64,000 nt of DNA from positions 62,001 through 126,000 of the forward strand of contig JAFSAT010000021.1 in NCBI GenBank assembly GCA_017442185.1, read 5' to 3'. The position numbers and the translations under genes are program-made. This document shows positions 1-48,873 of this stretch, piece after piece (the stretch's first letter is position 1; the number at the start of each line of letters is the position of its first letter). The notes beneath the pieces were generated by a model that was not told the DNA's origin, searched no databases, and was given only the letters and a program-made list of their open reading frames with translations. The stretch is from Bacteroidaceae bacterium (GTDB lineage: Bacteria; Bacteroidota; Bacteroidia; Bacteroidales; Bacteroidaceae).

Positions 1-1026
1 AGCAAACAATTCTACTCACCCGATTACAGCAACATGCTCCCCACCGGCAACAACGACCACAGGCGCACCCTGCTATGGTGTCCCGAAGCAAAAGTTGACG
101 ATGGCAAGCTCTGCATCGAACTATACAACAGTTCAACATGCAACGCGATAAAGGTAAATGTAGACGGAGTGTGCGGCAACACCTATTACAGCAACAACAT
201 GCACACACGCACCTCCAACGAAGCAACGGCACAAACACACCATCATACGGCACAAGACAGAAAAAAAGAGCCCACATTCAAGGCCGACTCTGCCACCATG
301 GCACAGCTTGCCTATGAATATGAACTTGGCGAGGTCTATTTCAATCAAAAGAAATACAGACAGGCCGTGCAGGTGTTTGCCGAATTGGTACAATACAACT
401 ACCCTCCTGCACTGCGCAGCATAGCTATATGTTACCTCAACGGATATGGTCTCAAGAAGAACTACACCCAAGCAACAAAATTCTTCGCAGCAGCAGCCGA
501 GGCCGGCGATGCCGCATCAATGTACGAAACAGCCATGCAATATAAAAATGGAACAGGAACAGAAAAAAGCCTCTCCACAGCCGTTGAATGGCTTACGCAG
601 GCAGCCGAGCTTCAAGAGCCACGCGCCCAGGCCGAACTTGGGAAATATTATCTAACCGTTGAGAAAGACACAGCGCGTGCGGTTGCGCTTTATCGCGCAT
701 CGGCACAACAGAATAACGCCGAAGGATTATACCTCTACGGCTTATACATGCTCGAAAAAAACACAGCCGATGAAACAGAAGCCCAATCGGCACTCGCATA
801 CATAAAAAATGCAGCCGAAAAACAACACACCAAGGCAATGCTGCACATGATGCACCACTACGACAAAGCTCAAGATTTTAAAGCCGCCTATGAATGGTCC
901 TACAAGCTCTACCTGCAAGGCAATAAAGAAGGGACACTCTATATGGCCGAATGTTATAAAAACGGACGAGGTGTGAAAAAAGACAAACAAATGGCCGAAG
1001 ATTTATATCGCGAAGCTGAGAAATAA
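1..1026 (+). CDS. 3' part of surface-type protein fused to SEL1-like repeats
   Basis: The reading frame is open from base 1, so the 5' end lies outside the window; 341 codons are visible. The first ~60 residues (FYSPDYSNMLPTGNNDHRR, then a LLWCPEAK stretch and a GKLCIELYNSST stretch) resemble the C-terminal end of large Bacteroidales macroglobulin/TonB-plug-like surface proteins, which commonly carry YSPDY and a DYRRTLYW-like motif. After a His/Thr-rich linker (about residues 65-95) comes an all-helical region with SEL1/TPR-type repeats (AICYLNGYGLKK, AMQYKNGTGTEK, AECYKNGRGVKK), about 36 residues per unit. SEL1 repeats usually serve as protein-binding scaffolds. An ATG at 34 could start a shorter protein, but it would cut into the conserved N-terminal stretch, so I treat the gene as partial. 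The function is not known. Confidence 0.7.
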   Translation, partial: SKQFYSPDYSNMLPTGNNDHRRTLLWCPEAKVDDGKLCIELYNSSTCNAIKVNVDGVCGNTYYSNNMHTRTSNEATAQTHHHTAQDRKKEPTFKADSATMAQLAYEYELGEVYFNQKKYRQAVQVFAELVQYNYPPALRSIAICYLNGYGLKKNYTQATKFFAAAAEAGDAASMYETAMQYKNGTGTEKSLSTAVEWLTQAAELQEPRAQAELGKYYLTVEKDTARAVALYRASAQQNNAEGLYLYGLYMLEKNTADETEAQSALAYIKNAAEKQHTKAMLHMMHHYDKAQDFKAAYEWSYKLYLQGNKEGTLYMAECYKNGRGVKKDKQMAEDLYREAEK

Positions 1027-1067
1027 CAGATACAGAGTATAATAAGAATAAAAAATTCACGTTATTT

Positions 1068-1261
1068 AAGAAGCTGTTTGAATTTATATCGCAAATTTTT
1101 TATAGAACAAAAATAGGATGTTTATCTATTTTTTTAGGGCGCATAGCGGGCTATGCAACCGCGAAAAAGAGAGAAACAGACATTTTTGAATATAAAAAAT
1201 GGTGAAACTGACAATACAATTTTATTAAGAAAATATCTTTTAGAAATTCAAACAGCTTCTT
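1068..1261. repeat. 194-bp element bounded by perfect 18-bp inverted repeats
   Basis: The left arm 1068-1085 (AAGAAGCTGTTTGAATTT) is the exact reverse complement of 1244-1261. The interior is non-coding and AT-rich with a small hairpin at 1141-1156 (GCATAGC, 2-nt loop, GCTATGC). A second element with closely related arms lies at 62392-62835. The shape suggests a MITE-like or other dispersed intergenic repeat, but no target-site duplication is obvious and no transposase is present. It fills the space between the SEL1 gene and porP. Confidence 0.7.
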
Positions 1262-1272
1262 AGAAGCTGTTT
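1250..1272 (+). promoter_or_regulatory. Palindrome directly upstream of the porP start
   Basis: AAACAGCTTCT (1250-1260) and AGAAGCTGTTT (1262-1272) form an 11-bp stem around one base, ending 5 nt before the ATG at 1278. The same 3' arm of the 1068-1261 element can pair either with the distant left arm (1068-1085) or with this adjacent copy, so two mutually exclusive RNA folds are possible. A regulatory role is inference; the palindrome may simply be a leftover of the repeat. Confidence 0.45.
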
Positions 1273-1277
1273 AAGTG

Positions 1278-2222
1278 ATGAGAAAGTTCCTGTATATATC
1301 AATAGTTTTAAGCCTGTGTACCCTCGGCAAGGTGTATGCACAATACGATGTGCACTTCACCCACTATTGGAACATGCAGAACTTCTACAATCCCGCCGGA
1401 GCCGGAGCCACCGGTAAACTGCACGCTTTTGGAGCATACAGCAATCAATTGAGCGGCTTCACAGGCAGTCCCAAGAGTATGCTCATAAATGCAGACATGC
1501 CTCTGTCCATGTTTCGCGGCGACCACTCCATAGGCCTTGGCGTGCTGAACGACGAGATAGGAATGTTCACTAACCAGCATCTGTTCATAAACTACGCCTA
1601 CGCCATGAAACTCTTTGGCGGACGTTTTGCCATAGGCGCACAGATAGGCCTGTTAAACGCAAAATTCGACCCCTCGGATATAAACCTTGGCGAGAATAGC
1701 GACGACCCAGCTTTCCCCTCAAGCGCCGTTGATGGCAACAAGTTCGATTTTGGAGCAGGAATACTCTATCAACACAAATATTTCTATACAGGAATTTCAT
1801 CGCTCCATCTGAATGCCCCCCTCATCGAAATGGGCGAAACAAACGAAATACAGATAGACCCATATTTTAATTTTATGGCCGGAGGCAATATACCGTTAAA
1901 AAATCCGTTAATAACCATACAGCCATCGGTACAAGTGATGACCGATTTTGTGTCATACCGCACCGACATCACCGCAAGGGGCAGCTACAACTACAACAAT
2001 AAGGTGTTCCTTGGAGGTGTGACATACAGCCCAAAGACCTCGGTAACGTTTTTCGCAGGAATAGAATTCCTGAATATAACGGTCAGCTACGGTTACGAAC
2101 TGTTTACCTCGGGAGTTGGTGCCGAGAACGGAAGCCACGATATATATATCGGCTACGACATTGAACTTGACATGTTTAAAAAAGGAAAGAACAAACATAA
2201 CAGTATAAGAATATTGCAATGA
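1278..2222 (+). CDS. porP: PorP/SprF family T9SS outer-membrane protein
   Basis: This is a 314-residue outer-membrane protein of the PorP/SprF family, one of the T9SS components that links the periplasmic ring and motor to the outer membrane. The ATG at 1278 is preferred over the in-frame GTG at 1275 because it gives a clean signal peptide (MRKFLYISIVLSLCTLGKVYA, cut before QYDVHFTHYW). The QxxxxYM/W...NPAGAG motif after the signal peptide and the alternating beta-strand pattern are typical of the family. It is the first gene of a porP-gldK-gldL-gldM-gldN operon, the same order as in Porphyromonas gingivalis. Its stop codon overlaps the gldK start (ATGA), which indicates coupled translation. 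Its 5' side is occupied by the inverted-repeat element. Confidence 0.9.
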   Translation: MRKFLYISIVLSLCTLGKVYAQYDVHFTHYWNMQNFYNPAGAGATGKLHAFGAYSNQLSGFTGSPKSMLINADMPLSMFRGDHSIGLGVLNDEIGMFTNQHLFINYAYAMKLFGGRFAIGAQIGLLNAKFDPSDINLGENSDDPAFPSSAVDGNKFDFGAGILYQHKYFYTGISSLHLNAPLIEMGETNEIQIDPYFNFMAGGNIPLKNPLITIQPSVQVMTDFVSYRTDITARGSYNYNNKVFLGGVTYSPKTSVTFFAGIEFLNITVSYGYELFTSGVGAENGSHDIYIGYDIELDMFKKGKNKHNSIRILQ

Positions 2223-3643
2223 TGAGAAGAATAGTTTATCTGTCAGCCCTCGTTCCGCTGTTGCTCATGGCATCATGTATGGGACCGCGCAAGAACACAA
2301 CGATGGGTGGCGAAGTGACCGGCATCAGCGGCACAGCAATCAATGAGCCGACACCTTATGGCATGGTGCTGGTAGATCGCGGCTCAATAAAGATAGGCGA
2401 ACAAGAGACCGACTCGCTTTGGGGAACCTCCACCCCCGTTAAAAACATCTCGGTAGACGCCTTTTGGATGGACGAAACAGAGGTATCAAACGCCAAATAC
2501 CGCCAATTTGTCTATTGGGTGCGCGACTCCATCATTCGCGAGCGCCTTGCCGATCCTGCATACGGAGGCGACGAAACATATAAAATCACCGAGGATGAAT
2601 ATGGCGAACCCATCACCCCATATTTAAATTGGAGCAAACCCATCCCATGGAAAAAGCCAACCGAAGATGAGCAACGCGCAATAGAAAGCGTATACATAAC
2701 AAACCCCATCACCGGCGAAAAAATGCTCGACGCCGCACAGATGAACTATCGTTACGAAATATACGACTACACACAGGCTGCACTGCGCAAACATCGTCTG
2801 AACCCTGCCGAGCGTAATCGCAACACCGATATTCCCGTAAATTACGAAGAGGTGGTGACAATATCAAAAGACACAGCATATATTGACGACGAAGGTATTA
2901 TACGCCGCGAGACAGTGACCCGCCCACTCTCAAGCACCTACGACTTTCTGAACACATACATCATAAACATATATCCCGACACAACCTGTTGGGTAAACGA
3001 TTTTCCAAATTCAAACAACGAAGTATATCTTAACCTCTATTTCAGCCACCCCAATTACAGCGAACACCCCGTTGTAGGCGTCTCATGGGAGCAAGCCAAT
3101 GCCTACTGTGCGTGGCGCACAGATTTTCTGCTTCGAGGAATGCGCGGACAGGCAAAATACATACAACGCTACCGTCTGCCCTCAGAAGCAGAGTGGGAAT
3201 ATGCAGCCCGTGGCAAACAAGGCACAAAATTCCCTTGGGAAGAGGGCGATACAAAAAGCGATAAAGGATGTTACTATGCCAACTATAAACCCGGTGAAGG
3301 AAACTACACACAAGATGGCAACCTAATCACATCGAAATGCGGAATATACTCGGCCAACAGCAACGGACTCTACGACATGGCAGGAAACGTAGCCGAATGG
3401 ACATCAACCGTCTACACCGAAGCAGGCATACTGCAAATGAACGACATGAATCCCGACCTGCAATATCGCGCCGCAAAAGAAGACCCATACAGCATGAAGA
3501 AGAAAACAGTGCGCGGCGGCTCATGGAAAGACCCCGTGCGATACATACAAGGCGCCACACGCTCACACGAATATCAAAACGAATCGCGCTCCTACATAGG
3601 ATTCCGTTGCGTGCGCAGCTATACAGGAACATCAAAGAGATAA
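2219..3643 (+). CDS. gldK: T9SS ring lipoprotein GldK/PorK
   Basis: The product is a 474-residue outer-membrane lipoprotein that forms, with GldN/PorN, the large periplasmic ring of the T9SS. The signal peptide ends in a lipobox LMASC with the lipidated Cys at residue 20. The rest is a formylglycine-generating-enzyme (FGE-sulfatase) fold: GMVLVDRGS near residue 48, DETEVSN near 87, YRLPSEAEWEYAARG near 320, YDMAGNVAEW near 385, and the terminal RGGSW...GFRCVRS block. In GldK this fold is structural, and no enzyme activity is implied. An ATG at 2222 is an equally possible start, one codon later. The gene overlaps the porP stop and lies 37 bp before gldL. Confidence 0.95.
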   Translation: MMRRIVYLSALVPLLLMASCMGPRKNTTMGGEVTGISGTAINEPTPYGMVLVDRGSIKIGEQETDSLWGTSTPVKNISVDAFWMDETEVSNAKYRQFVYWVRDSIIRERLADPAYGGDETYKITEDEYGEPITPYLNWSKPIPWKKPTEDEQRAIESVYITNPITGEKMLDAAQMNYRYEIYDYTQAALRKHRLNPAERNRNTDIPVNYEEVVTISKDTAYIDDEGIIRRETVTRPLSSTYDFLNTYIINIYPDTTCWVNDFPNSNNEVYLNLYFSHPNYSEHPVVGVSWEQANAYCAWRTDFLLRGMRGQAKYIQRYRLPSEAEWEYAARGKQGTKFPWEEGDTKSDKGCYYANYKPGEGNYTQDGNLITSKCGIYSANSNGLYDMAGNVAEWTSTVYTEAGILQMNDMNPDLQYRAAKEDPYSMKKKTVRGGSWKDPVRYIQGATRSHEYQNESRSYIGFRCVRSYTGTSKR

Positions 3644-3680
3644 CAACATCGCATCACACACATACTTAAGATAGAAAGCT

Positions 3681-4397
3681 ATGGGCAATAAAAGAAAAAT
3701 CATAAGCAGCATACAAACATTCATGGACTCCCCCAAAGGCCGAACCTACCTCAATTACATATACAGCTGGGGAGCCGCAATCGTAATCTTAGGAACACTG
3801 TTCAAGCTGACACATATTGCAGGTGCCAACCTTATGCTGTTCATAGGCATGGGAGCCGAGGTTGTAGTATTCTTCTTCTCGGCTTTCGAGCGACCCTATG
3901 AACTTGCCGAAGAAGACCGCAAAGAAGAGCGTGCCGAACGACGAGCCGAACGCGCAGCAAGCGGCTCACAATCAATAATAATAAGCGGAAACATTGCACA
4001 AGGCGCATCAGACAATAACACTTTCGTAGGTGGAACAACAACTGCCGGCAACATTGCAGCCACACAAACAGCCGACCCCGGTCTTGTAGAAGAGATGGAC
4101 AACGCCACCAAAGAGTATGTAGAGAAAGTACACTCACTGAACGAAGCCATCAAACGCATCTCCGAACAGAGCGAAAGCCTTGGTCGTAACATGGCAGAAA
4201 TGGAAACACTTGCACGAAACATCACCGCAATGAACGCAATGTACGAGATACAACTGCGCAATGCCGGCAACCAAGTGGGTAACACCGAGCTTGTAAACGA
4301 AGAGATAAAGAAAATGGCAGCCCAGATAAAAGAGCTGAACGCAATGTATACCCGCATGCTCGACGCCATGACCATAAACATGAACCGCCAACAGTAA
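3681..4397 (+). CDS. gldL: T9SS motor protein GldL/PorL
   Basis: This 238-residue inner-membrane protein forms, with GldM, the proton-driven motor of the T9SS. Two transmembrane helices are visible near the N-terminus (about residues 24-43 and 50-68). The second contains GMGAEVVVFFFSAFE; its Glu60 corresponds by position to the conserved membrane glutamate of GldL that is needed for proton use. The cytoplasmic part is charged (EEDRKEERAERRAERAA) and then predicted coiled coil (about 130-235). Length and domain order fit the family. It is followed by gldM after 21 bp. Confidence 0.95.
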   Translation: MGNKRKIISSIQTFMDSPKGRTYLNYIYSWGAAIVILGTLFKLTHIAGANLMLFIGMGAEVVVFFFSAFERPYELAEEDRKEERAERRAERAASGSQSIIISGNIAQGASDNNTFVGGTTTAGNIAATQTADPGLVEEMDNATKEYVEKVHSLNEAIKRISEQSESLGRNMAEMETLARNITAMNAMYEIQLRNAGNQVGNTELVNEEIKKMAAQIKELNAMYTRMLDAMTINMNRQQ

Positions 4398-4418
4398 CAT
4401 CACAAAGAAAACCGAGCG

Positions 4419-5996
4419 ATGAAAATAAAGAAAAACAAAATATCGCCACGTCAAAAGATGATAAATCTGATGTACGTTCTTCTTATGGCCATGTTGGCAT
4501 TGAACGTATCGTCAGACGTACTCAACGGCTTCACACTTGTCGACGAAAGCCTGTCGCGCAGTACCGCCAACGCCAATGTGCAGAATGCCGCAATGTATAG
4601 CGACTTTGAAACATCAATGGCACAAAATCCCGAAAAAGTTGGCGAATGGTACGCACGAGCACAAAGCGTGCGCACAATGTCCGACTCACTATACAACCTT
4701 GCCGAACACCTTAAAGTGCGCATCGCCCGAAAAGCCGACGGAAAAAACGGCAACTACCGAACACTCGAAAATCGCGAAGACCTCGAAGCCTCCACACACG
4801 TGATGCTGGCCCCCGGCAGCGGACAAGGAAAAGAGCTGTATGATGCAATAACATCATATCGCGAAAATATCCTCGCAATGATAACCGACAGCATACAACG
4901 TCAGATAATAAAAGACAACTTCAGCACCGACATACCTCGCAAAGACATCTCACTAATGAAAAATTGGCAAGAGTACCACTTTGAGAACATGCCGGCAATA
5001 GCAGCCATCACACTGCTCACAAAACTGCAAAACGATGTCAGATACGCCGAAGGCGAAGTGCTCCACACATTGGCCCGCAACATCGACGTAGGCGATGTAC
5101 GCGTAAACCAAATACACGCCTTGGTAATACCCAATTCACGCAATGTGGTACGCGGCAACGACTTCACCGCGCAAATAATACTTGCAGCCGTAGACTCCAC
5201 CCAACGTCCCGAGATATACATAGGCGACGAAAAGCTCGACACCGACAATGGCATATATTCACGCCCCTGCAACACCACAGGCGATTACACACTCAACGGC
5301 TACATGCTTGTAAACGATGGTGCAGGAGCCTCTACCCGCTACAACTTCTCACAAAGCTACACAGTGGTAGAGCCGACAGCCACAGTGAGCGCTTCGCTCA
5401 TGAATGTGCTTTACGCAGGCTTCGAGAATCCCATCAGCATTTCAGTTCCCGGAGTTCCGGCAAACCGCATCTCGGCCTCAGTGGCAAAAGGCAGCGCAAC
5501 ACTCAAGAGCGACGGCAAAGGGGGCTACATAGCCGTGCCGACACAAATTGGCGAAGAACTTATAATAGAAGTAACAGCAACAAACGAAGAAGGACGCCGT
5601 CAGAGCATGGGACAATACGCATTCCGCGTAAGACAATTGCCCGACCCCACCCCGTTCATAGAGTATAAAGACAAAGACGGCAACACACAACGCTACCGCG
5701 GAGGACGCCCATTCGCCAAGCAAGCCCTGATGAGCACCGACGGCATTGTGGCAGCCATCGACGACGGGCTTTTAAACATCAGCTTCAAAGTACTGTCGTT
5801 TGATGCCGTATTCTTCGACAACATGGGCAACGCAATACCCCGCAAATCAGACGGAGCACAATTCTCACAAGCACAAAAGGATATGTTCCGCAGCCTTCAG
5901 CGTGGCAAACGCTTCTACATATCAAACGTAAGAGCAATAGGCCCCGACAATGTAGAGCGCCAACTGCCCACCTCACTCGAAGTAATAATAAACTAA
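4419..5996 (+). CDS. gldM: T9SS motor protein GldM/PorM
   Basis: The product (525 residues) is the long periplasm-spanning partner of GldL; it carries torque from the inner-membrane motor to the GldK/GldN ring. It starts with the family signature KISPRQKMINLMYVLLMAM followed by LALNVSSDVLNGF, which is a short basic cytoplasmic tail and one transmembrane helix (about residues 15-35). The remaining ~480 residues form the helical and Ig-like periplasmic domains, ending in the conserved C-terminal region (KRFYISNVRAIGPDN). Length and start match the family. The gene lies between gldL and gldN with short gaps and is surely in the same transcript. Confidence 0.95.
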   Translation: MKIKKNKISPRQKMINLMYVLLMAMLALNVSSDVLNGFTLVDESLSRSTANANVQNAAMYSDFETSMAQNPEKVGEWYARAQSVRTMSDSLYNLAEHLKVRIARKADGKNGNYRTLENREDLEASTHVMLAPGSGQGKELYDAITSYRENILAMITDSIQRQIIKDNFSTDIPRKDISLMKNWQEYHFENMPAIAAITLLTKLQNDVRYAEGEVLHTLARNIDVGDVRVNQIHALVIPNSRNVVRGNDFTAQIILAAVDSTQRPEIYIGDEKLDTDNGIYSRPCNTTGDYTLNGYMLVNDGAGASTRYNFSQSYTVVEPTATVSASLMNVLYAGFENPISISVPGVPANRISASVAKGSATLKSDGKGGYIAVPTQIGEELIIEVTATNEEGRRQSMGQYAFRVRQLPDPTPFIEYKDKDGNTQRYRGGRPFAKQALMSTDGIVAAIDDGLLNISFKVLSFDAVFFDNMGNAIPRKSDGAQFSQAQKDMFRSLQRGKRFYISNVRAIGPDNVERQLPTSLEVIIN

Positions 5997-6024
5997 AAAA
6001 ACAGTCATAATACACCTATATATT

Positions 6025-7092
6025 ATGGAACAAATCAGAAATATACTCTTACTCGCAGCCATACTCCTCATAGGAGAATATGCAGCAGCGCAACCCCCCG
6101 CCCGCAAAAGAGATAAAGAGCAAAAGAGTACACAAACAGCCGTATACGAAGTGCCCCTCACACAAAGAGCAAAAAGTCAATATCCCGCCACATCAACCCC
6201 AACCGATGTTGTGTGGAAACGCGACATATACCGCGTGCTCGACCTTACAAAAGAGAAAAACGCATCACTATACTACCCTGTTCAACCAATAGGCAAAAAT
6301 GTCAATCTCTTCACATATATCTTCCGCCACATACTCGACGGCAGTATCACCGCCTACGAGTATAACCTTGACGGATACGAAGACTTCACCCCTGAGAACA
6401 AAATAGACCCCCGCCAGATGCTCGAGAATTACAGCATCTATTATGAATATGCCGAGGATAGCACAATAACGGTTAACCCCTCGGACATGCCCGGCAACGA
6501 GGTGCTCAGCTACTATATAAAAGAGAGCTACTACTACGACCAACGCACAGCCAACTACAATCAACGTGTAACAGCCATCTGCCCCGTGCTGCATCGTGCC
6601 GGAGAATTTACAAGCGAAGTGACCAAATACCCCATGTTCTGGCTGAATTACGAAGAGATTGAATCGCTTTTGAGCCTGCAAACAGTAATGACGAGCAGCT
6701 ACAACAACATATCCACCATGACACTCAACGACTACTTTACCAAACATAGTTACGAGGGCGAGATATACAAAACCGTCAATCTGCGCAACCTTGCAATAAG
6801 CCAATATTGCAAAGACTCCACAGCTGTAAAAAAAGAACAACAGAGGATAGAGAAGCAACTGAAAGACTTCCGAAGTAATCTGTGGGAGATTCCGGCTCCT
6901 GCAGCCGACAGCACAGCAGTTGCAGCCGACAGCACAGCTGTCGACGACAAAAAAGAAGACACCAAAGAAAAGAAAGCATCGGCACGCGCCGCACGAAAAA
7001 AGGAGACCGCAAGCAAAAAAGTAAAAAAACAGAAGAGCAGTTCAAAGAGCAGCGGCGGAAGCAAGATTTCTGTTCGCCGTCAACGCCGATAA
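6025..7092 (+). CDS. gldN: T9SS ring protein GldN/PorN with Lys-rich tail
   Basis: GldN/PorN is the periplasmic partner of GldK in the T9SS ring. The 355-residue product has a signal peptide (MEQIRNILLLAAILLIGEYAAAQ) and the family core from about residue 50 to 290 (VVWKRDIYRVLDL, then PVQPIGKNVNLFTYIF, and TVNLRNLAISQYCKD). The last ~65 residues are unusual: a short duplication AADSTAV-AADSTAV, then a Lys/Ala/Glu-rich low-complexity stretch ending in KISVRRQRR. Such a basic tail is not part of the conserved domain. It closes the T9SS operon, followed by a strong terminator. Confidence 0.93.
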   Translation: MEQIRNILLLAAILLIGEYAAAQPPARKRDKEQKSTQTAVYEVPLTQRAKSQYPATSTPTDVVWKRDIYRVLDLTKEKNASLYYPVQPIGKNVNLFTYIFRHILDGSITAYEYNLDGYEDFTPENKIDPRQMLENYSIYYEYAEDSTITVNPSDMPGNEVLSYYIKESYYYDQRTANYNQRVTAICPVLHRAGEFTSEVTKYPMFWLNYEEIESLLSLQTVMTSSYNNISTMTLNDYFTKHSYEGEIYKTVNLRNLAISQYCKDSTAVKKEQQRIEKQLKDFRSNLWEIPAPAADSTAVAADSTAVDDKKEDTKEKKASARAARKKETASKKVKKQKSSSKSSGGSKISVRRQRR

Positions 7093-7128
7093 ACATATCT
7101 AAGCTGATATTAAAGACTTTCTATACAT

Positions 7129-7167
7129 AAGCGGTTGCATCATTTACGATGCAACCGCTTTGTTTTT
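7129..7167 (+). terminator. Rho-independent terminator of the T9SS operon
   Basis: AGCGGTTGCATC (7130-7141) pairs perfectly with GATGCAACCGCT (7148-7159) around a 6-nt loop, followed by TTGTTTTT. It lies 37 bp after the gldN stop. Confidence 0.9.
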
Positions 7168-7236
7168 ATCATTGAACAGAAACGCCACTCTTAACACTAT
7201 TTAACAGAATGGGGGGGTAATTTAAATGAAAGCACA

Positions 7237-7244
7237 TATATTTG
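7237..7244 (+). promoter_or_regulatory. Possible -7 box (TATATTTG) of the PD40 gene
   Basis: TATATTTG fits the Bacteroides -7 consensus TAnnTTTG and would start transcription about 17 nt before the ATG at 7268. There is no TTTG at the expected -33 position (a run of G lies there), so the call is weak. Confidence 0.35.
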
Positions 7245-7267
7245 TAAAAATTTTGATTTATTTAAAA

Positions 7268-8248
7268 ATGAACAAAATATATGTAACACTCATCACGCTG
7301 TGTGCTTTCTCAATAGCCTATTCGCAAAAAGTAGATTACTCGGTAGTATCAGTACCCGAAGAATCCGGCATTGATTTTCTGCAAATAACACAATCAAACG
7401 ATTATCTATGTATGCCTTTGGTTAAACGTAATTCAAACAGAGTAAACTGGTTCACCAATCATATCATAGACATTTCACCGGAGGGCAACGATATAGCTTA
7501 CCTGTCAATGAGAAACAACTGCAGCAACATATTTATAAAATCATTGCTCAAACAAGGCAGTTCCGTTCAGAGAACCAACAGAAGCAATGTAACAGACTTT
7601 TCATACTCACCCGACGGAGAACACATCTGCTTCTCAGAGAAACGCGGAAAGAGTTACCAAATATTTCAGACAAGCGCAACCAAAGGCTATGTTTGTCGTC
7701 AAATCACTACAAACAACAACGATTATTCTCCCATATATACCCCCGATATGGCACAAATAATATTTGCACGTCAAGAGACAAACGGCATGAGTATATGGGG
7801 CTACAACATCAAAGATAATTTCATATCAAGCTATACGACAGGAATGAATCCCTGCATGCTCGATAACAGTACAATCATCTGCACACGAATAAACAACGAG
7901 GGGCGCGGCGAAATATGGAAAGTAAATTATGAGACAGGCATCGAAGAGTGCATAATATCAGATATCGAGCGTAGCTTCACTTCGCCTCGTGTATCTCCCG
8001 ATGGCAAATGGATTCTATTTGTAGGAAGCAGCAAAATAACAACAGATAAATTTGCCTATTGGAACACCGACATATATGTTGCACAAACGGACGGCACAAA
8101 TTTCACCCAAATAACCTATCACGCAGCCGACGACCTCAGCCCCGTATGGAGTAAAGACGGTAAATACATATACTTCGTATCTCAGCGAGGCAGCAGAGAG
8201 GGTGCTGCTAATATTTGGAGAATGACATTCACTCAAATCTCTCAATAA
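7268..8248 (+). CDS. Secreted TolB-like PD40 beta-propeller protein
   Basis: The start at 7268 is chosen because the product then begins with a normal signal peptide (MNKIYVTLITLCAFSIAYSQ); an in-frame ATG at 7226 would add 14 residues before it. The 326-residue protein is built of PD40/WD40-like blades, with repeated SPDG or related turns (DISPEGNDIAYLS, YSPDGEHICFSEKRG, YTPDMAQIIFARQ, VSPDGKWILFVG, WSKDGKYIYFVSQRG). Propellers of this type are seen in TolB and in periplasmic or surface proteins of Bacteroidota, where they bind proteins or sugars. There is no protease or hydrolase domain. It sits after the T9SS operon terminator and just before two beta-barrel genes. The function is unknown. 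Confidence 0.8.
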   Translation: MNKIYVTLITLCAFSIAYSQKVDYSVVSVPEESGIDFLQITQSNDYLCMPLVKRNSNRVNWFTNHIIDISPEGNDIAYLSMRNNCSNIFIKSLLKQGSSVQRTNRSNVTDFSYSPDGEHICFSEKRGKSYQIFQTSATKGYVCRQITTNNNDYSPIYTPDMAQIIFARQETNGMSIWGYNIKDNFISSYTTGMNPCMLDNSTIICTRINNEGRGEIWKVNYETGIEECIISDIERSFTSPRVSPDGKWILFVGSSKITTDKFAYWNTDIYVAQTDGTNFTQITYHAADDLSPVWSKDGKYIYFVSQRGSREGAANIWRMTFTQISQ

Positions 8249-44826: not shown

Positions 44827-45519
44827 ATGAAGTTACTGATTGTTGAAGACGACACCTCGTTACGCGAAATAATATGCCGCGCCCTTCGCAGCGAAGGATA
44901 TATCGTGGAGAGTGCCGCCACATTTGCCGACGCCCAAGATAAGACAGCCGCTTATGACTACGACTGCATAATGCTCGACATAATGCTGCCCGACGGCAAC
45001 GGGTTGCGCCTGCTCGAACATATAAAATCGCTGAATAAGAGCAACCGCATAATAATAATATCGGCAAAAGACTCCATCGACGACAAAGTAGAGGGATTAG
45101 ACCTTGGCGCCGACGACTATCTGGCAAAACCATTCTACATGGCAGAATTGTCGGCACGCATAAAGAGCGTACTACGACGCGGAAACGCCGCCGTTAGTAA
45201 CATAATGAAAGCCGGCAACATATCGTTAGACGTGCACGGACGCACAGCCGACATCAACGGCAACACAATACCTCTGCTGAAAAAAGAATTTGACATACTG
45301 CTTTACTTTCTGCAACGTCCCAACCACATAGTCGACAAAGCCGTACTTGCCGAATCAGTCTGGGGCGACCACGTGGACATGGCAGATAATTTCAGCTTCG
45401 TGTATGCACAAGTAAAAAACCTTCGCAAGAAACTTACAGAGGCCGGTGCCACAGTAAACATAAAGGCCGTATACGGTTTCGGATATAAATTAACAGAAAC
45501 AGATGAAACTGCTTCATAG
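44827..45519 (+). CDS. OmpR/PhoB-family response regulator
   Basis: The 230-residue protein has a receiver domain with acidic pocket (VEDD, residues 6-9), phosphoacceptor Asp51 in CIMLDIMLPDGNG, Thr/Ser switch in IIISAKD, and Lys in DDYLAKPF near 103. The C-terminal winged helix (about 130-225) ends VNIKAVYGFGYKL. It overlaps the next gene, its cognate histidine kinase, by 17 bp and lies 21 bp after rnr. Targets cannot be read from sequence; the PepSY-like genes downstream of the kinase are natural candidates. Confidence 0.93.
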   Translation: MKLLIVEDDTSLREIICRALRSEGYIVESAATFADAQDKTAAYDYDCIMLDIMLPDGNGLRLLEHIKSLNKSNRIIIISAKDSIDDKVEGLDLGADDYLAKPFYMAELSARIKSVLRRGNAAVSNIMKAGNISLDVHGRTADINGNTIPLLKKEFDILLYFLQRPNHIVDKAVLAESVWGDHVDMADNFSFVYAQVKNLRKKLTEAGATVNIKAVYGFGYKLTETDETAS

Positions 45520-46771
45520 AGTAGCCCTGAACCTGACCCTCGTGCTATTACCGATAATAGCATTATGGGCAATCATCTTCTACCACTCAATGATAGAAGA
45601 GATAAACGACGAAGCCGACGACAGCCTTGCCGACTACGCCGAAATGATTATACGCCGCCAGCTTGCAGGCTACCCCTTGCCACCACTTAACAGCGGCTCC
45701 AACAACAGCTACACTATCATTCCGCTTGAAACGGCCGTTGAACCATTTATAAAATACCACGACGAGATGGTCTTCATCCCCGAAGAAGAGGACACCGAAC
45801 CGGCACGAGTACTGACCACGGTATTTCCCGACAACAACAACTGCTACTACAAACTCACAGTAGCCATGCCAACTTTTGAGCGCGACGACCTGCGAAATGC
45901 AATCTTTTGGTACGTGGTGGCACTGTCGGCAGTAATGGTGCTTACAATACTCGTAGCCACCACACTAATATTTCAGCGCAGCATGCGTCCGTTATATGCA
46001 CTGCTGCGTTGGTTCGATAAATACAGCCCCGGAAAGATTACAGAAAAAATCCCCGACTCTGACGTACACGAATTTCACAAGCTGAGCCAGGCGGCACAAA
46101 CAGCCGTCAACCGCGCCGAAGAACATTTTCAAATGCAAAAACAATTCATAGGCAATGCCTCACACGAACTGCAAACTCCGCTGGCAGTCATTGGCAACCG
46201 CATTGAGTGGCTCATAGACAACACCGCAATAAACGAAGAGCAATATACCGAACTTTCAAAAATACAGCACACGCTGAATCGTCTTGTCCGACTTAACAGA
46301 ACACTGCTCCTTCTCACAAAAATAGACAACGGACAGTTCCCCGAGACATCATCAATAGATATTGCCGCACTCATACGCAGTGAGATTGAAATATATGATG
46401 AGATATACTCTCACCGCAACATACAACACACAACAGACGCACCCGAAAGTGTTAATGTGAAGATGAACGAAACGCTTGCCGGCATTCTTATAACCAACTT
46501 GATAAAGAATGCCTTCGTGCACTCACCCGATGACAGTAATATAAAAGTTATATTACAAGATGATACATTAGAGATAGCCAACAGCGGTAGTGCCCCCTTA
46601 GACGCCGAAAAAATTTTCGACCGCTTCTATCACGACGGGAAAAGCGGCTCAACCGGCTTGGGACTTGCATTGGTAAATTCAATATGCCGATACTACGGTC
46701 TAACCACAGAGTATCGCTTCGAGCATGAAAGACACATATTCAAAATCAAGGGGTTCCATAGAGACTTTTGA
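45503..46771 (+). CDS. Sensor histidine kinase
   Basis: The 422-residue kinase has two transmembrane helices (about 7-25 and 137-158) around a periplasmic sensor of ~110 residues rich in acidic and aromatic residues. A short HAMP-like linker follows. The phosphoacceptor is in NASHELQTPLAVIGNRIEWL near residue 219, the N box is in TNLIKNAFVHSP near 335, and the G boxes in STGLGLALVNSICRYYG near 393. The DxGxG (G1) motif is reduced to EIANSGSAPL. It pairs with the response regulator upstream through a 17-bp overlap. The ligand is unknown. Confidence 0.92.
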   Translation: MKLLHRVALNLTLVLLPIIALWAIIFYHSMIEEINDEADDSLADYAEMIIRRQLAGYPLPPLNSGSNNSYTIIPLETAVEPFIKYHDEMVFIPEEEDTEPARVLTTVFPDNNNCYYKLTVAMPTFERDDLRNAIFWYVVALSAVMVLTILVATTLIFQRSMRPLYALLRWFDKYSPGKITEKIPDSDVHEFHKLSQAAQTAVNRAEEHFQMQKQFIGNASHELQTPLAVIGNRIEWLIDNTAINEEQYTELSKIQHTLNRLVRLNRTLLLLTKIDNGQFPETSSIDIAALIRSEIEIYDEIYSHRNIQHTTDAPESVNVKMNETLAGILITNLIKNAFVHSPDDSNIKVILQDDTLEIANSGSAPLDAEKIFDRFYHDGKSGSTGLGLALVNSICRYYGLTTEYRFEHERHIFKIKGFHRDF

Positions 46772-46934
46772 AGATTTCAAATAAGCGGTTAAATTTTTAT
46801 CGTTGTTTTTATAGAAAAAGTTAAATATTGTAAATACGCGAAAATTTCAAATTCTTTTCAGAATCGGTTCTAATCTTTGCACTGTAAACAATGCACAAGA
46901 TAAAAAAAGTATAACCAGATAAAAGAATAGAATT

Positions 46935-47381
46935 ATGAAAAAGTTATTTGTATTTGCAGCAATATGCGCACTGAGTATCTCAACAGTTAAGGCCGACGGA
47001 TTCGACCGCGACCGCATAATCACAAAAGAGCAACTGCCCGCAACGTCACAAAATTTCATATCCGAACATTTTGCCGGCAGCAAAGTTGCTTATGTAAAGG
47101 AAGACCGCGATTTTATCTCAAAAAACTATGAAGTTAAATTTTCAGATGGCTCAAAAGTAGAATTTTCACGTGACGGCGCATGGAAAGAGGTATCATGCCG
47201 CAGTGTAGAGGTTCCATCGGCCATAGTACCCGACCAAATAGAAAAATACATAAAAGAGAATTACGAAGGGGCCAGAATCATTGAGATTGACCGTGACCGC
47301 AACGACTATGAAGTAAGACTATCCAACCGCTTGGAACTAACCTTCGACCTGAAATTCAACATCATAGACATTGATGATTGA
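46935..47381 (+). CDS. Secreted PepSY-like protein 1
   Basis: The 148-residue product has a signal peptide (MKKLFVFAAICALSISTVKA) and two PepSY-like/BLIP-like half repeats: LPATSQNFISEHFAGSKVAY...NYEVKFSDGSKVEFSRDGAWKEV, and VPDQIEKYIKENYEGARIIE...YEVRLSNRLELTFDLKFNI. Family members are small periplasmic or secreted binding proteins with no enzyme activity shown. It is one of three related genes in a row behind a two-component system. A weak -7-like AATCTTTG at 46872-46879 lies in the 163-bp gap. Confidence 0.85.
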   Translation: MKKLFVFAAICALSISTVKADGFDRDRIITKEQLPATSQNFISEHFAGSKVAYVKEDRDFISKNYEVKFSDGSKVEFSRDGAWKEVSCRSVEVPSAIVPDQIEKYIKENYEGARIIEIDRDRNDYEVRLSNRLELTFDLKFNIIDIDD

Positions 47382-47507
47382 CATACAAGTTAAAGATATT
47401 ATAAAACTTAAAAACTTTATAGCACAAAAAGGCGAACAAAGTAGAGCGTAATAATTGTTCTTACTCTGCAACGAAACAACAATAACAACAAAAAGAAGAA
47501 AAGAGCC

Positions 47508-47948
47508 ATGAGAAAGTTTATGTTAGCAACATTCGTCCTTATTTCATTCGTGTTTATCACGGCAAAGGCCGATAATGACAGAGTAATAAAAAAAGAAAAG
47601 CTCCCCGTAACAGCGCAAAAGTTCATCAGCATCCATTTTCCGGGCATAAAAATCTCCTACGTCAAAGAAGAACGTGACTTTATGGAAAAAAACTACGAAG
47701 TGGTTTTTACAGATGGAAGCAAAATAGAATTTTCGCGTGGAGGAGAATGGAAAGAGGTAGATTGTCGCTACACAGAGGTGCCATCGGCCATAGTTCCCGA
47801 CCAGATTGAAAAATACATATCGGAGCACTACCCCAACGAAAAAGTTCTGCAAATAGACCGCAACCACAATAGTTACGAAGTGCGATTATCTAACCGTCTG
47901 GAACTAACATTCGACAAAAATTACAATATAACAGATATAGACGACTGA
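47508..47948 (+). CDS. Secreted PepSY-like protein 2
   Basis: This 146-residue paralogue of the preceding gene has the same layout: signal peptide (MRKFMLATFVLISFVFITAKA), then two half repeats. Long blocks are shared with protein 1, such as VPSAIVPDQIEKYI and YEVRLSNRLELTFD, with differences scattered elsewhere. This indicates an older tandem duplication rather than a recent one. Its start, MRKF, lies 126 bp after the first gene's stop, and the gap has no clear terminator. It may be cotranscribed with its neighbours. Confidence 0.85.
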   Translation: MRKFMLATFVLISFVFITAKADNDRVIKKEKLPVTAQKFISIHFPGIKISYVKEERDFMEKNYEVVFTDGSKIEFSRGGEWKEVDCRYTEVPSAIVPDQIEKYISEHYPNEKVLQIDRNHNSYEVRLSNRLELTFDKNYNITDIDD

Positions 47949-47991
47949 GAGATTATTAATAGAATTAACAACACCAAAAAGAGAGAAAAAA

Positions 47992-48804
47992 ATGAAAAAA
48001 CTATTTCCAATATTAATGCTTATAGCATGCACCGCATTTGTAGCATGCGACGATGACGATAATGACAACATTGCTGTAAATCAAGCAATAAGAAGCTACA
48101 TCGAGAACAAATACCCCGGTGCCGACATACGTAAAGCCGAGAAGAGCAGCAACGGATTGGTTGAGGTTGAATTTATTCACGAGAGCCGCTTGAAAGAGGC
48201 ATACTTCAATGCAGCAAACGAGTGGCAATATACAGAATGGGACGTAGCAATAGGCAGCCTTCCAGCCAATATATCCAACGCCATTGCCACCAACTACCCC
48301 GATTTTCGCATAGACGATGCCGACTACATAGAATCGCCCAAAGGCACATTCTACGAAATAGAGATAGAGAAAGGCAACGTTGAGCAATGGATATTTGTAA
48401 CCCCCGAAGGTGACATCACATCAAGTGCTCCCGAAAATAATACTCCAACCATTATCTCAAGCGCAAAGGAATATGTGCTTGACAAATATCCCGGAGTAGT
48501 GATACGCAGCGCCGGATACGACGACAACGGACTGATAGAGGTTGAATTTCTGCACGAATCAATCGTAAAGGATGCCTATTTCAATTCAAAAGGAGAGTGG
48601 CAATACACCGAGTGGGACGTAGCTGTAAAAAATCTTCCGCAAGCAGTCACAAGTGCAGTGGCAGCCGCATACCCCGATTACAGAATAGATGATGCCGACT
48701 TTATCGAAAGAGCTTCGGGCAATTATTACAAGCTCGATATTGAAAAAGGAAATTATGAAATCCTGCTATTTGTTACTTCGGACGGCAACATAATCACTCA
48801 ATAA
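47992..48804 (+). CDS. Surface lipoprotein with two PepSY-like domains
   Basis: The 270-residue product is a lipoprotein (lipobox AFVAC, Cys19). The Cys is followed by DDDDND, an acidic stretch of the kind that sends Bacteroidota lipoproteins to the cell surface. Two ~125-residue PepSY-like/BLIP-like domains follow (about 27-142 and 150-270), each containing the block EWQYTEWDVA...YPDxRIDDADxIE...IEKGN. The domains clearly arose by internal duplication. It is the third member of the cluster, 43 bp after protein 2, and is followed by a terminator. Confidence 0.87.
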   Translation: MKKLFPILMLIACTAFVACDDDDNDNIAVNQAIRSYIENKYPGADIRKAEKSSNGLVEVEFIHESRLKEAYFNAANEWQYTEWDVAIGSLPANISNAIATNYPDFRIDDADYIESPKGTFYEIEIEKGNVEQWIFVTPEGDITSSAPENNTPTIISSAKEYVLDKYPGVVIRSAGYDDNGLIEVEFLHESIVKDAYFNSKGEWQYTEWDVAVKNLPQAVTSAVAAAYPDYRIDDADFIERASGNYYKLDIEKGNYEILLFVTSDGNIITQ

Positions 48805-48834: not shown

Positions 48835-48873
48835 TCCGTTCCTGCAAAAAATATGCAGGAACGGATGTTTTAT
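48835..48873 (+). terminator. Terminator after the PepSY-like cluster
   Basis: TCCGTTCCTGCA (48835-48846) and TGCAGGAACGGA (48854-48865) form a perfect 12-bp stem with a 7-nt loop, followed by TGTTTTAT. Confidence 0.88.

Follow-up and report, generated by a model that had tools for sequence, protein, structure and literature searches.

The stretch of DNA analyzed here (the window, 64,000 nucleotides of a Bacteroidaceae bacterium genome) encodes a two-component system (TCS) followed by two small secreted PepSY-like proteins and a PepSY-like lipoprotein, and we identified a candidate operator immediately upstream of the first of these PepSY-like genes. Because this operator is almost exclusive to PepSY-like and response regulator (RR) genes across relatives, the neighboring TCS very probably has the PepSY-like proteins as its main direct output, as judged from sequence. 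The operator is the new part of this finding, and the gene set itself is of a kind already known. We found no description of the operator or of a narrow, dispersed PepSY regulon in the literature searched.

Gene content of the module

Pfam searches recovered all five genes named in a sequence-only reading of this DNA: a TCS, then two secreted single-unit PepSY-like proteins and a double-unit lipoprotein. That reading had the genes right but started the set too far downstream, as it begins with the RR gene at 44827. The features are as follows.

44827..45519, + strand: OmpR/PhoB-type RR, HaeR-like; PF00072 at 98.7 bits and PF00486 at 59.6 bits (Response_reg and Trans_reg_C)
45503..46771, + strand: histidine kinase (HK); PF00512 (HisKA) and PF02518 (HATPase_c)
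46845..46865, + strand: proposed RR operator, direct repeat TTTCAAATTCT/TTTCAGAATCG with an 11-bp period; exact pattern match, unique in the genome
46871..46880, + strand: -7-like promoter element TAATCTTTGC, from sequence
46935..47381, + strand: PS1, secreted PepSY-like protein with a signal peptide; PF11396 at 109 bits
47508..47948, + strand: PS2, secreted PepSY-like protein; PF11396 at 108 bits
47992..48804, + strand: lipoprotein with two PepSY-like (BLIP-fold) units and a C-DDDD surface-export-like signal; PF11396 at 84 bits in two stretches
48835..48865, + strand: terminator-like 12-bp hairpin, then UGUUUUA, closing the operon; -22.7 kcal/mol, z -7.3

The PF11396 (PepSY_like, DUF2874) scores of PS1, PS2, and the lipoprotein are far over the curated cut-off of 28.3 bits, and a whole-genome domain search found these proteins to hold the sole four PF11396 domain matches of the 2.36-Mb assembly. 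PS1 and PS2 did not match the Pfam PepSY family (PF03413), and PF11396 was their only match at E values up to 0.01.

A candidate operator shared by PepSY-like and RR genes

The conserved 11-bp direct repeat, TTTCAAATTCaTTTCAGAATC, lies immediately 5' of a -7-like TAnnnTTTGC, and the upstream consensus can be written as TTTCAAATTCaTTTCAGAATCG-N2-TATAATcTTTGCA right before a Bacteroidota-type -7 element. The half-sites are identical at 8 of 11 positions with a spacing kept in 47 loci, and the TTTG of the -7-like element is near-invariant over 47 aligned upstream regions. The second half-site overlaps the -33 position of the promoter, and tandem direct half-sites about 11 bp apart over -33/-35 fit an OmpR/PhoB-type regulated promoter.

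A strict pattern (TTTCANNTTCNTTTCANAAT-N8-14-TTTGC) had a single match in the window's own genome, at 46845-46880 and 5' of PS1. Across 61 genomes (that of the window and its relatives), we observed 38 strict matches, with none for the reversed control in any genome. Thirty-five of the 38 preceded a same-strand PF11396 domain by no more than 600 bp, unlinked PepSY genes included, and the other three were about 698 bp before an HK gene, which places them just upstream of the RR ortholog. In 295 genomes of the order (about 1 Gb), the pattern occurred four times, always at PepSY or RR orthologs; three matches were 5' of PepSY genes (G000, G044, and G047) and one, the only match in its genome, was before an RR ortholog (G326, L095).

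When up to two mismatches were allowed in the genus loci, the box preceded 47/50 PS genes and 16/21 RR genes but no lipoprotein (0/31), HK (0/21), rnr (0/22), or metF (0/19) gene; the random-window background was 64/3000, counting windows that overlap true sites. Many Bacteroides also carry the box upstream of the RR ortholog. Among 80 named loci, with up to three mismatches, the operator was present in 33 of the 45 with a TCS versus 5 of the 35 without one (Fisher p 1e-7, indicative only, as the genomes are related and kinship was uncorrected).

Within the window, PS2 has no operator (six mismatches in the best upstream match), and none separate to the lipoprotein was found. The region upstream of the RR gene likewise holds no box (seven mismatches in the best match), so RR autoregulation appears to be lost or absent in this species. 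We also considered a wide regulon in the same genome and found no second convincing operator, weaker genome-wide sites having been sought by pattern alone. One site with three mismatches, G000:C17:94358, has no -7 element resembling that of a promoter, and chance is its best explanation.

The simplest reading of these data is that the RR would bind the box and drive PepSY genes wherever they are placed, and in many species also the RR gene itself. That the window RR binds its box and activates transcription from it is, in our judgment, highly likely. Alternatively, the operator might serve another regulator, such as a second OmpR-type RR, with the TCS merely its neighbor. Consistent with this alternative, the pairing of box and RR rests on sequence, published Porphyromonas gingivalis targets give no such motif, and the window RR is without a box. 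We nevertheless consider it very improbable, since the box precedes the RR ortholog itself in most genus loci, in many Bacteroides, and in G326, and since PS relatives at loci without a TCS mostly lack the box.

The sequence-only reading had proposed that PepSY-like genes found apart from the regulator in relatives would speak against regulation by the TCS. Such solo copies do exist, yet they retain the operator, which points to one dispersed regulon. In genome G028, two near-identical solo PepSY genes with near-identical upstream regions are 2.8 kb apart (L066:6809-7258 and L066:10027-10476), and this pair reflects either an assembly effect or a recent event that duplicated the gene together with its operator.

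Conservation of the TCS-PepSY neighborhood

In an even sample of the order (119 genomes), 17 of 18 strong HK orthologs (E 1e-70 or better) were followed by a PF11396 gene 237-541 bp downstream, and the PF11396 domain of the eighteenth was on another contig. The shared, near-exclusive operator and this conserved neighborhood together strongly support the earlier idea of the PepSY-like proteins as output of the TCS. Of the 61 own and related genomes, 44 contained PF11396 and 45 an HK match (E 1e-40 or better). Loci of the genus typically run rnr-RR-HK-PS(-PS)-lipoprotein-metF-holB-ricT, although inversions and insertions occur, and several genus genomes have extra solo PS genes elsewhere. Identity to the window RR is 73-79% for RR orthologs of the genus and 55-66% for those of Bacteroides, Alistipes, and Porphyromonas gulae. 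A BT0923 scan of named genomes detected the same module in Bacteroides, Phocaeicola vulgatus (BVU2987), Parabacteroides, Alistipes, Barnesiella, Dysgonomonas, Porphyromonas gulae, and Flavobacterium hungaricum.

Rumen genomes of the Prevotella type carry more distant PS relatives without the TCS and without the box. These PepSY-like genes of Prevotella/Muribaculaceae type are often in tandem pairs (L150-L162, L164-L169, and L171-L173), and another regulator must therefore serve this subfamily.

Two GenBank records labeled "Bacteriophage sp." matched PS1, with a similar match in each (MT836766.1 and MT836508.1). The first, an unverified record from human feces (L177; positions 1-7708), carries RR-HK-PS-lipoprotein with operator-like sites before the RR and PS genes. 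On examination it reads as bacterial and is most likely a mislabeled bacterial contig, and we discarded a phage association.

Structure, location, and history of the PepSY-like proteins

The closest solved relative of PS1 by sequence search is 3db7, which is BT0923 (E 6e-42), and 3due was also matched. The AlphaFold model of the lipoprotein (mean pLDDT 89.5) has four helix-plus-sheet repeats that form two BLIP-like units, with Foldseek matches to 3u1w (E 1.5e-16), 4k61, and 4fr9. The BLIP-like repeats expected of PF11396, a helix plus a four-strand sheet, are thus present in the lipoprotein model and, by sequence to 3db7/3due, in PS1.

The mature lipoprotein is predicted to begin with C-DDDD-N (ACDDDDND in the window), a lipobox cysteine followed by an acidic export signal. 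At least three of the five residues after the cysteine are acidic in 44 of 57 parsed lipoprotein relatives, so the CDDDD surface-export-like signal pointed out in the sequence-only reading has counterparts in most relatives. These features place the lipoprotein probably on the cell surface, with PS1 and PS2 predicted to be periplasmic.

Growth of the set by duplication, also part of the sequence-only reading, holds insofar as PS1 shares 63% identity with PS2, and one half of the lipoprotein 51% with the other. The duplications are not recent, because the PS1 and PS2 clades and the lipoprotein repeat are common to other species. In our tree, PS1 and PS2 fall into separate clades, each also holding proteins of other species, with unlinked solo genes inside the PS1 clade; the clades predate the species, ruling out a recent duplication specific to the window. 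The tandem lipoprotein repeat is found in 12 of 31 parsed genus members and likewise in Bacteroides and Parabacteroides.

PS proteins have a mean net charge of -4 and near-invariant Cys88, Trp83, Pro35, and Pro94. The single Cys88 (PS1 numbering) is kept in 94% of 141 PS proteins despite their periplasmic location and could be a metal, heme, or redox site.

The sensor domain and a proposed mechanism

The HK model (pLDDT 86.8) has a sensor of four strands between helices 2-55 and 127-173. This acidic, periplasmic domain spans about residues 30-125 between two long transmembrane-containing helices, with a mean net charge of about -14 over 70 HK orthologs and ten conserved acidic positions (E33, D36, E37, D39, D40, D87, D97, E99, E126, and D129). 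Foldseek matches came mostly from the cytoplasmic HisKA/ATPase core, so the fold gave no sensor family.

A cationic ligand is suggested by the acidic sensor domain and by a solved relative labeled as calcium binding. Our best guess is a metal ion or metal complex, because the BVU2987 crystal structure has an acidic concave face, for which a positively charged partner was proposed (PMC2954215), because 3u1w, a Parabacteroides relative of the lipoprotein, was deposited as a calcium-binding protein, and because expression of BT0922 rises 3.7-fold in low iron and 4.1-fold in colitis, and that of BT0923 5-fold and 3.2-fold, respectively (PMC10434189). Envelope stress, suggested earlier as the context of this output, is unsupported, and published ortholog data point to hemin/iron (PMC3764172 and PMC10434189).

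We propose that the module serves envelope sensing in Bacteroidota, as an ortholog of P. gingivalis HaeSR-PG0718-PG0717. The HK would sense a periplasmic signal through its small, strongly acidic sensor domain, and the phosphorylated RR would bind the 11-bp direct repeat over the -33 region to turn on the PS1-PS2-lipoprotein operon, the main and perhaps only strong RR target in its genome. The induced acidic BLIP-like proteins may then fill the periplasm (PS1 and PS2) and probably the cell surface (lipoprotein), where they would bind a cationic ligand and either sequester it or touch the sensor domain, returning the kinase to rest. We regard this mechanism as a whole as likely. Feedback on the kinase, also raised in the sequence-only reading, is a possibility for which DbfQ of Vibrio cholerae sets a published precedent; this small PepSY protein, encoded beside dbfRS, binds the DbfS sensor and shifts the kinase to phosphatase (PMC12714742). 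The ligand type and such feedback, taken jointly, are a tentative guess that we hold at somewhat short of an even chance.

How the PepSY-like proteins would relate to the kinase can be read in other ways. They may be effectors only, buffering metal or peptide or inhibiting a periplasmic enzyme as BLIP/YpmB do, without any contact with the kinase. Gene copies differ in number, and extra ones at unlinked sites have the operator too, as would be expected of dose-driven effectors; the surface-export-like signal would place the lipoprotein beyond the reach of the kinase; and the BLIP-like fold has suggested inhibitors (PMC2954215). Against this stand the example of DbfQ (PMC12714742) and a linkage to the kinase gene that is tight, old, and found in many families; both favor some functional contact and leave an effector-only role a credible alternative that we nonetheless doubt. 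Conversely, PS1 and PS2 might be dedicated feedback proteins that have no ligand of their own and that, by binding its sensor domain, switch the kinase to phosphatase mode. This idea is consistent with DbfQ-DbfS binding and the wide occurrence of PepSY genes next to a TCS (PMC12714742), with a loop closed by the operator, and with the auxiliary-regulator role proposed by the PG0717 authors (PMC3772042). We find it unlikely, as PS1 and PS2 are downstream under their own promoter, duplicated, and dispersed, belong to PF11396 and not PF03413, and are acidic like their presumed partner, with the lipoprotein left unexplained. Sensor and PS proteins both being acidic does not favor direct binding without a bridging cation.

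Our proposed mechanism could extend to a dedicated, near-single-target loop across Bacteroidota, in which one kinase has as its sole main output a set of ligand-carrying PepSY-like proteins, periplasmic and surface-bound, that also serve as its inputs by presenting the ligand to it. We consider this quite unlikely, and if true, the cell would count an external cation or metal complex through its PepSY-like proteins.

Gut and oral Bacteroidota commonly encode PF11396 proteins, which have several crystal structures and no established function. An operator defined at base level that joins them to one conserved kinase offers a direct route to the inducing signal through a PS1 promoter reporter. 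It also helps to delimit the HaeR/HaeSR regulon, for whose published targets no motif has been reported, and allows a test of whether kinases of Bacteroidota are controlled in the DbfQ mode as well.

Comparison with known systems

The sequence-only reading ranked this locus as its best candidate for an undescribed system, which is wrong, as the gene set is, by sequence, orthologous to the already described HaeSR (PG0720/PG0719)-PG0718-PG0717 locus of P. gingivalis, whose order is RR, HK, small secreted protein, and PepSY-like lipoprotein, as in the window (PMC3764172 and PMC3772042). Gene order in P. gingivalis is taken from these papers, and our orthology comparison was made on P. gulae L148, which has the same order with 58% (RR), 41% (HK), 45% (PS), and 29% (lipoprotein) identity to the window and an operator with one mismatch before the PS gene. 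PG0717 and PG0718 are co-transcribed, and the study that reported this had already put forward the conservation of their locus and a possible role as auxiliary regulators (PMC3772042).

PG0717 was reported with four DUF2874 domains, whereas the window lipoprotein has two Pfam matches and four structural repeats. HaeR binds its own promoter, while the window RR is without a box. HaeR was also reported with many varied targets at unrelated promoters (PMC3764172), in contrast to one strong operator in the window; its DNase footprint on asSuGR was published as positions, not sequence. When P. gingivalis W83 deleted for PG0720 was profiled by RNA-seq on blood agar, the 28 genes listed as changed did not include PG0717 or PG0718 (PMC8757827, Table 1). 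Either the system was inactive under those conditions, or P. gingivalis has a different regulon, or our inference is wrong for that species. This result and the many reported HaeR targets are the main reasons why our confidence in the proposed mechanism is not higher.

BT0922/BT0923 of Bacteroides thetaiotaomicron and BVU2987 of P. vulgatus are PS orthologs (3db7 and 3due) adjoining orthologous RR and HK genes. In a B. thetaiotaomicron-type locus (L097), the PS protein is 100% identical to BT0923 over 126 residues. Unlike the window, this locus has about 3 kb between HK and PS, with genes for an ABC transporter ATPase, a membrane protein, and a secreted protein on the opposite strand (L097:3866-6713, - strand), and the operator there is more degenerate.

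As in the window, a small periplasmic PepSY-type protein is encoded beside the TCS in DbfQRS of Vibrio cholerae and in BqsRS with PA2658/PA2659 of Pseudomonas aeruginosa (PMC12714742, whose main text has no word beginning Bacteroid). DbfQ belongs to Pfam PepSY and is encoded upstream within the TCS operon, whereas the window PS proteins belong to PF11396 and are encoded downstream, and the window adds to the PS proteins a lipoprotein that has no surface counterpart in DbfQRS or BqsRS.
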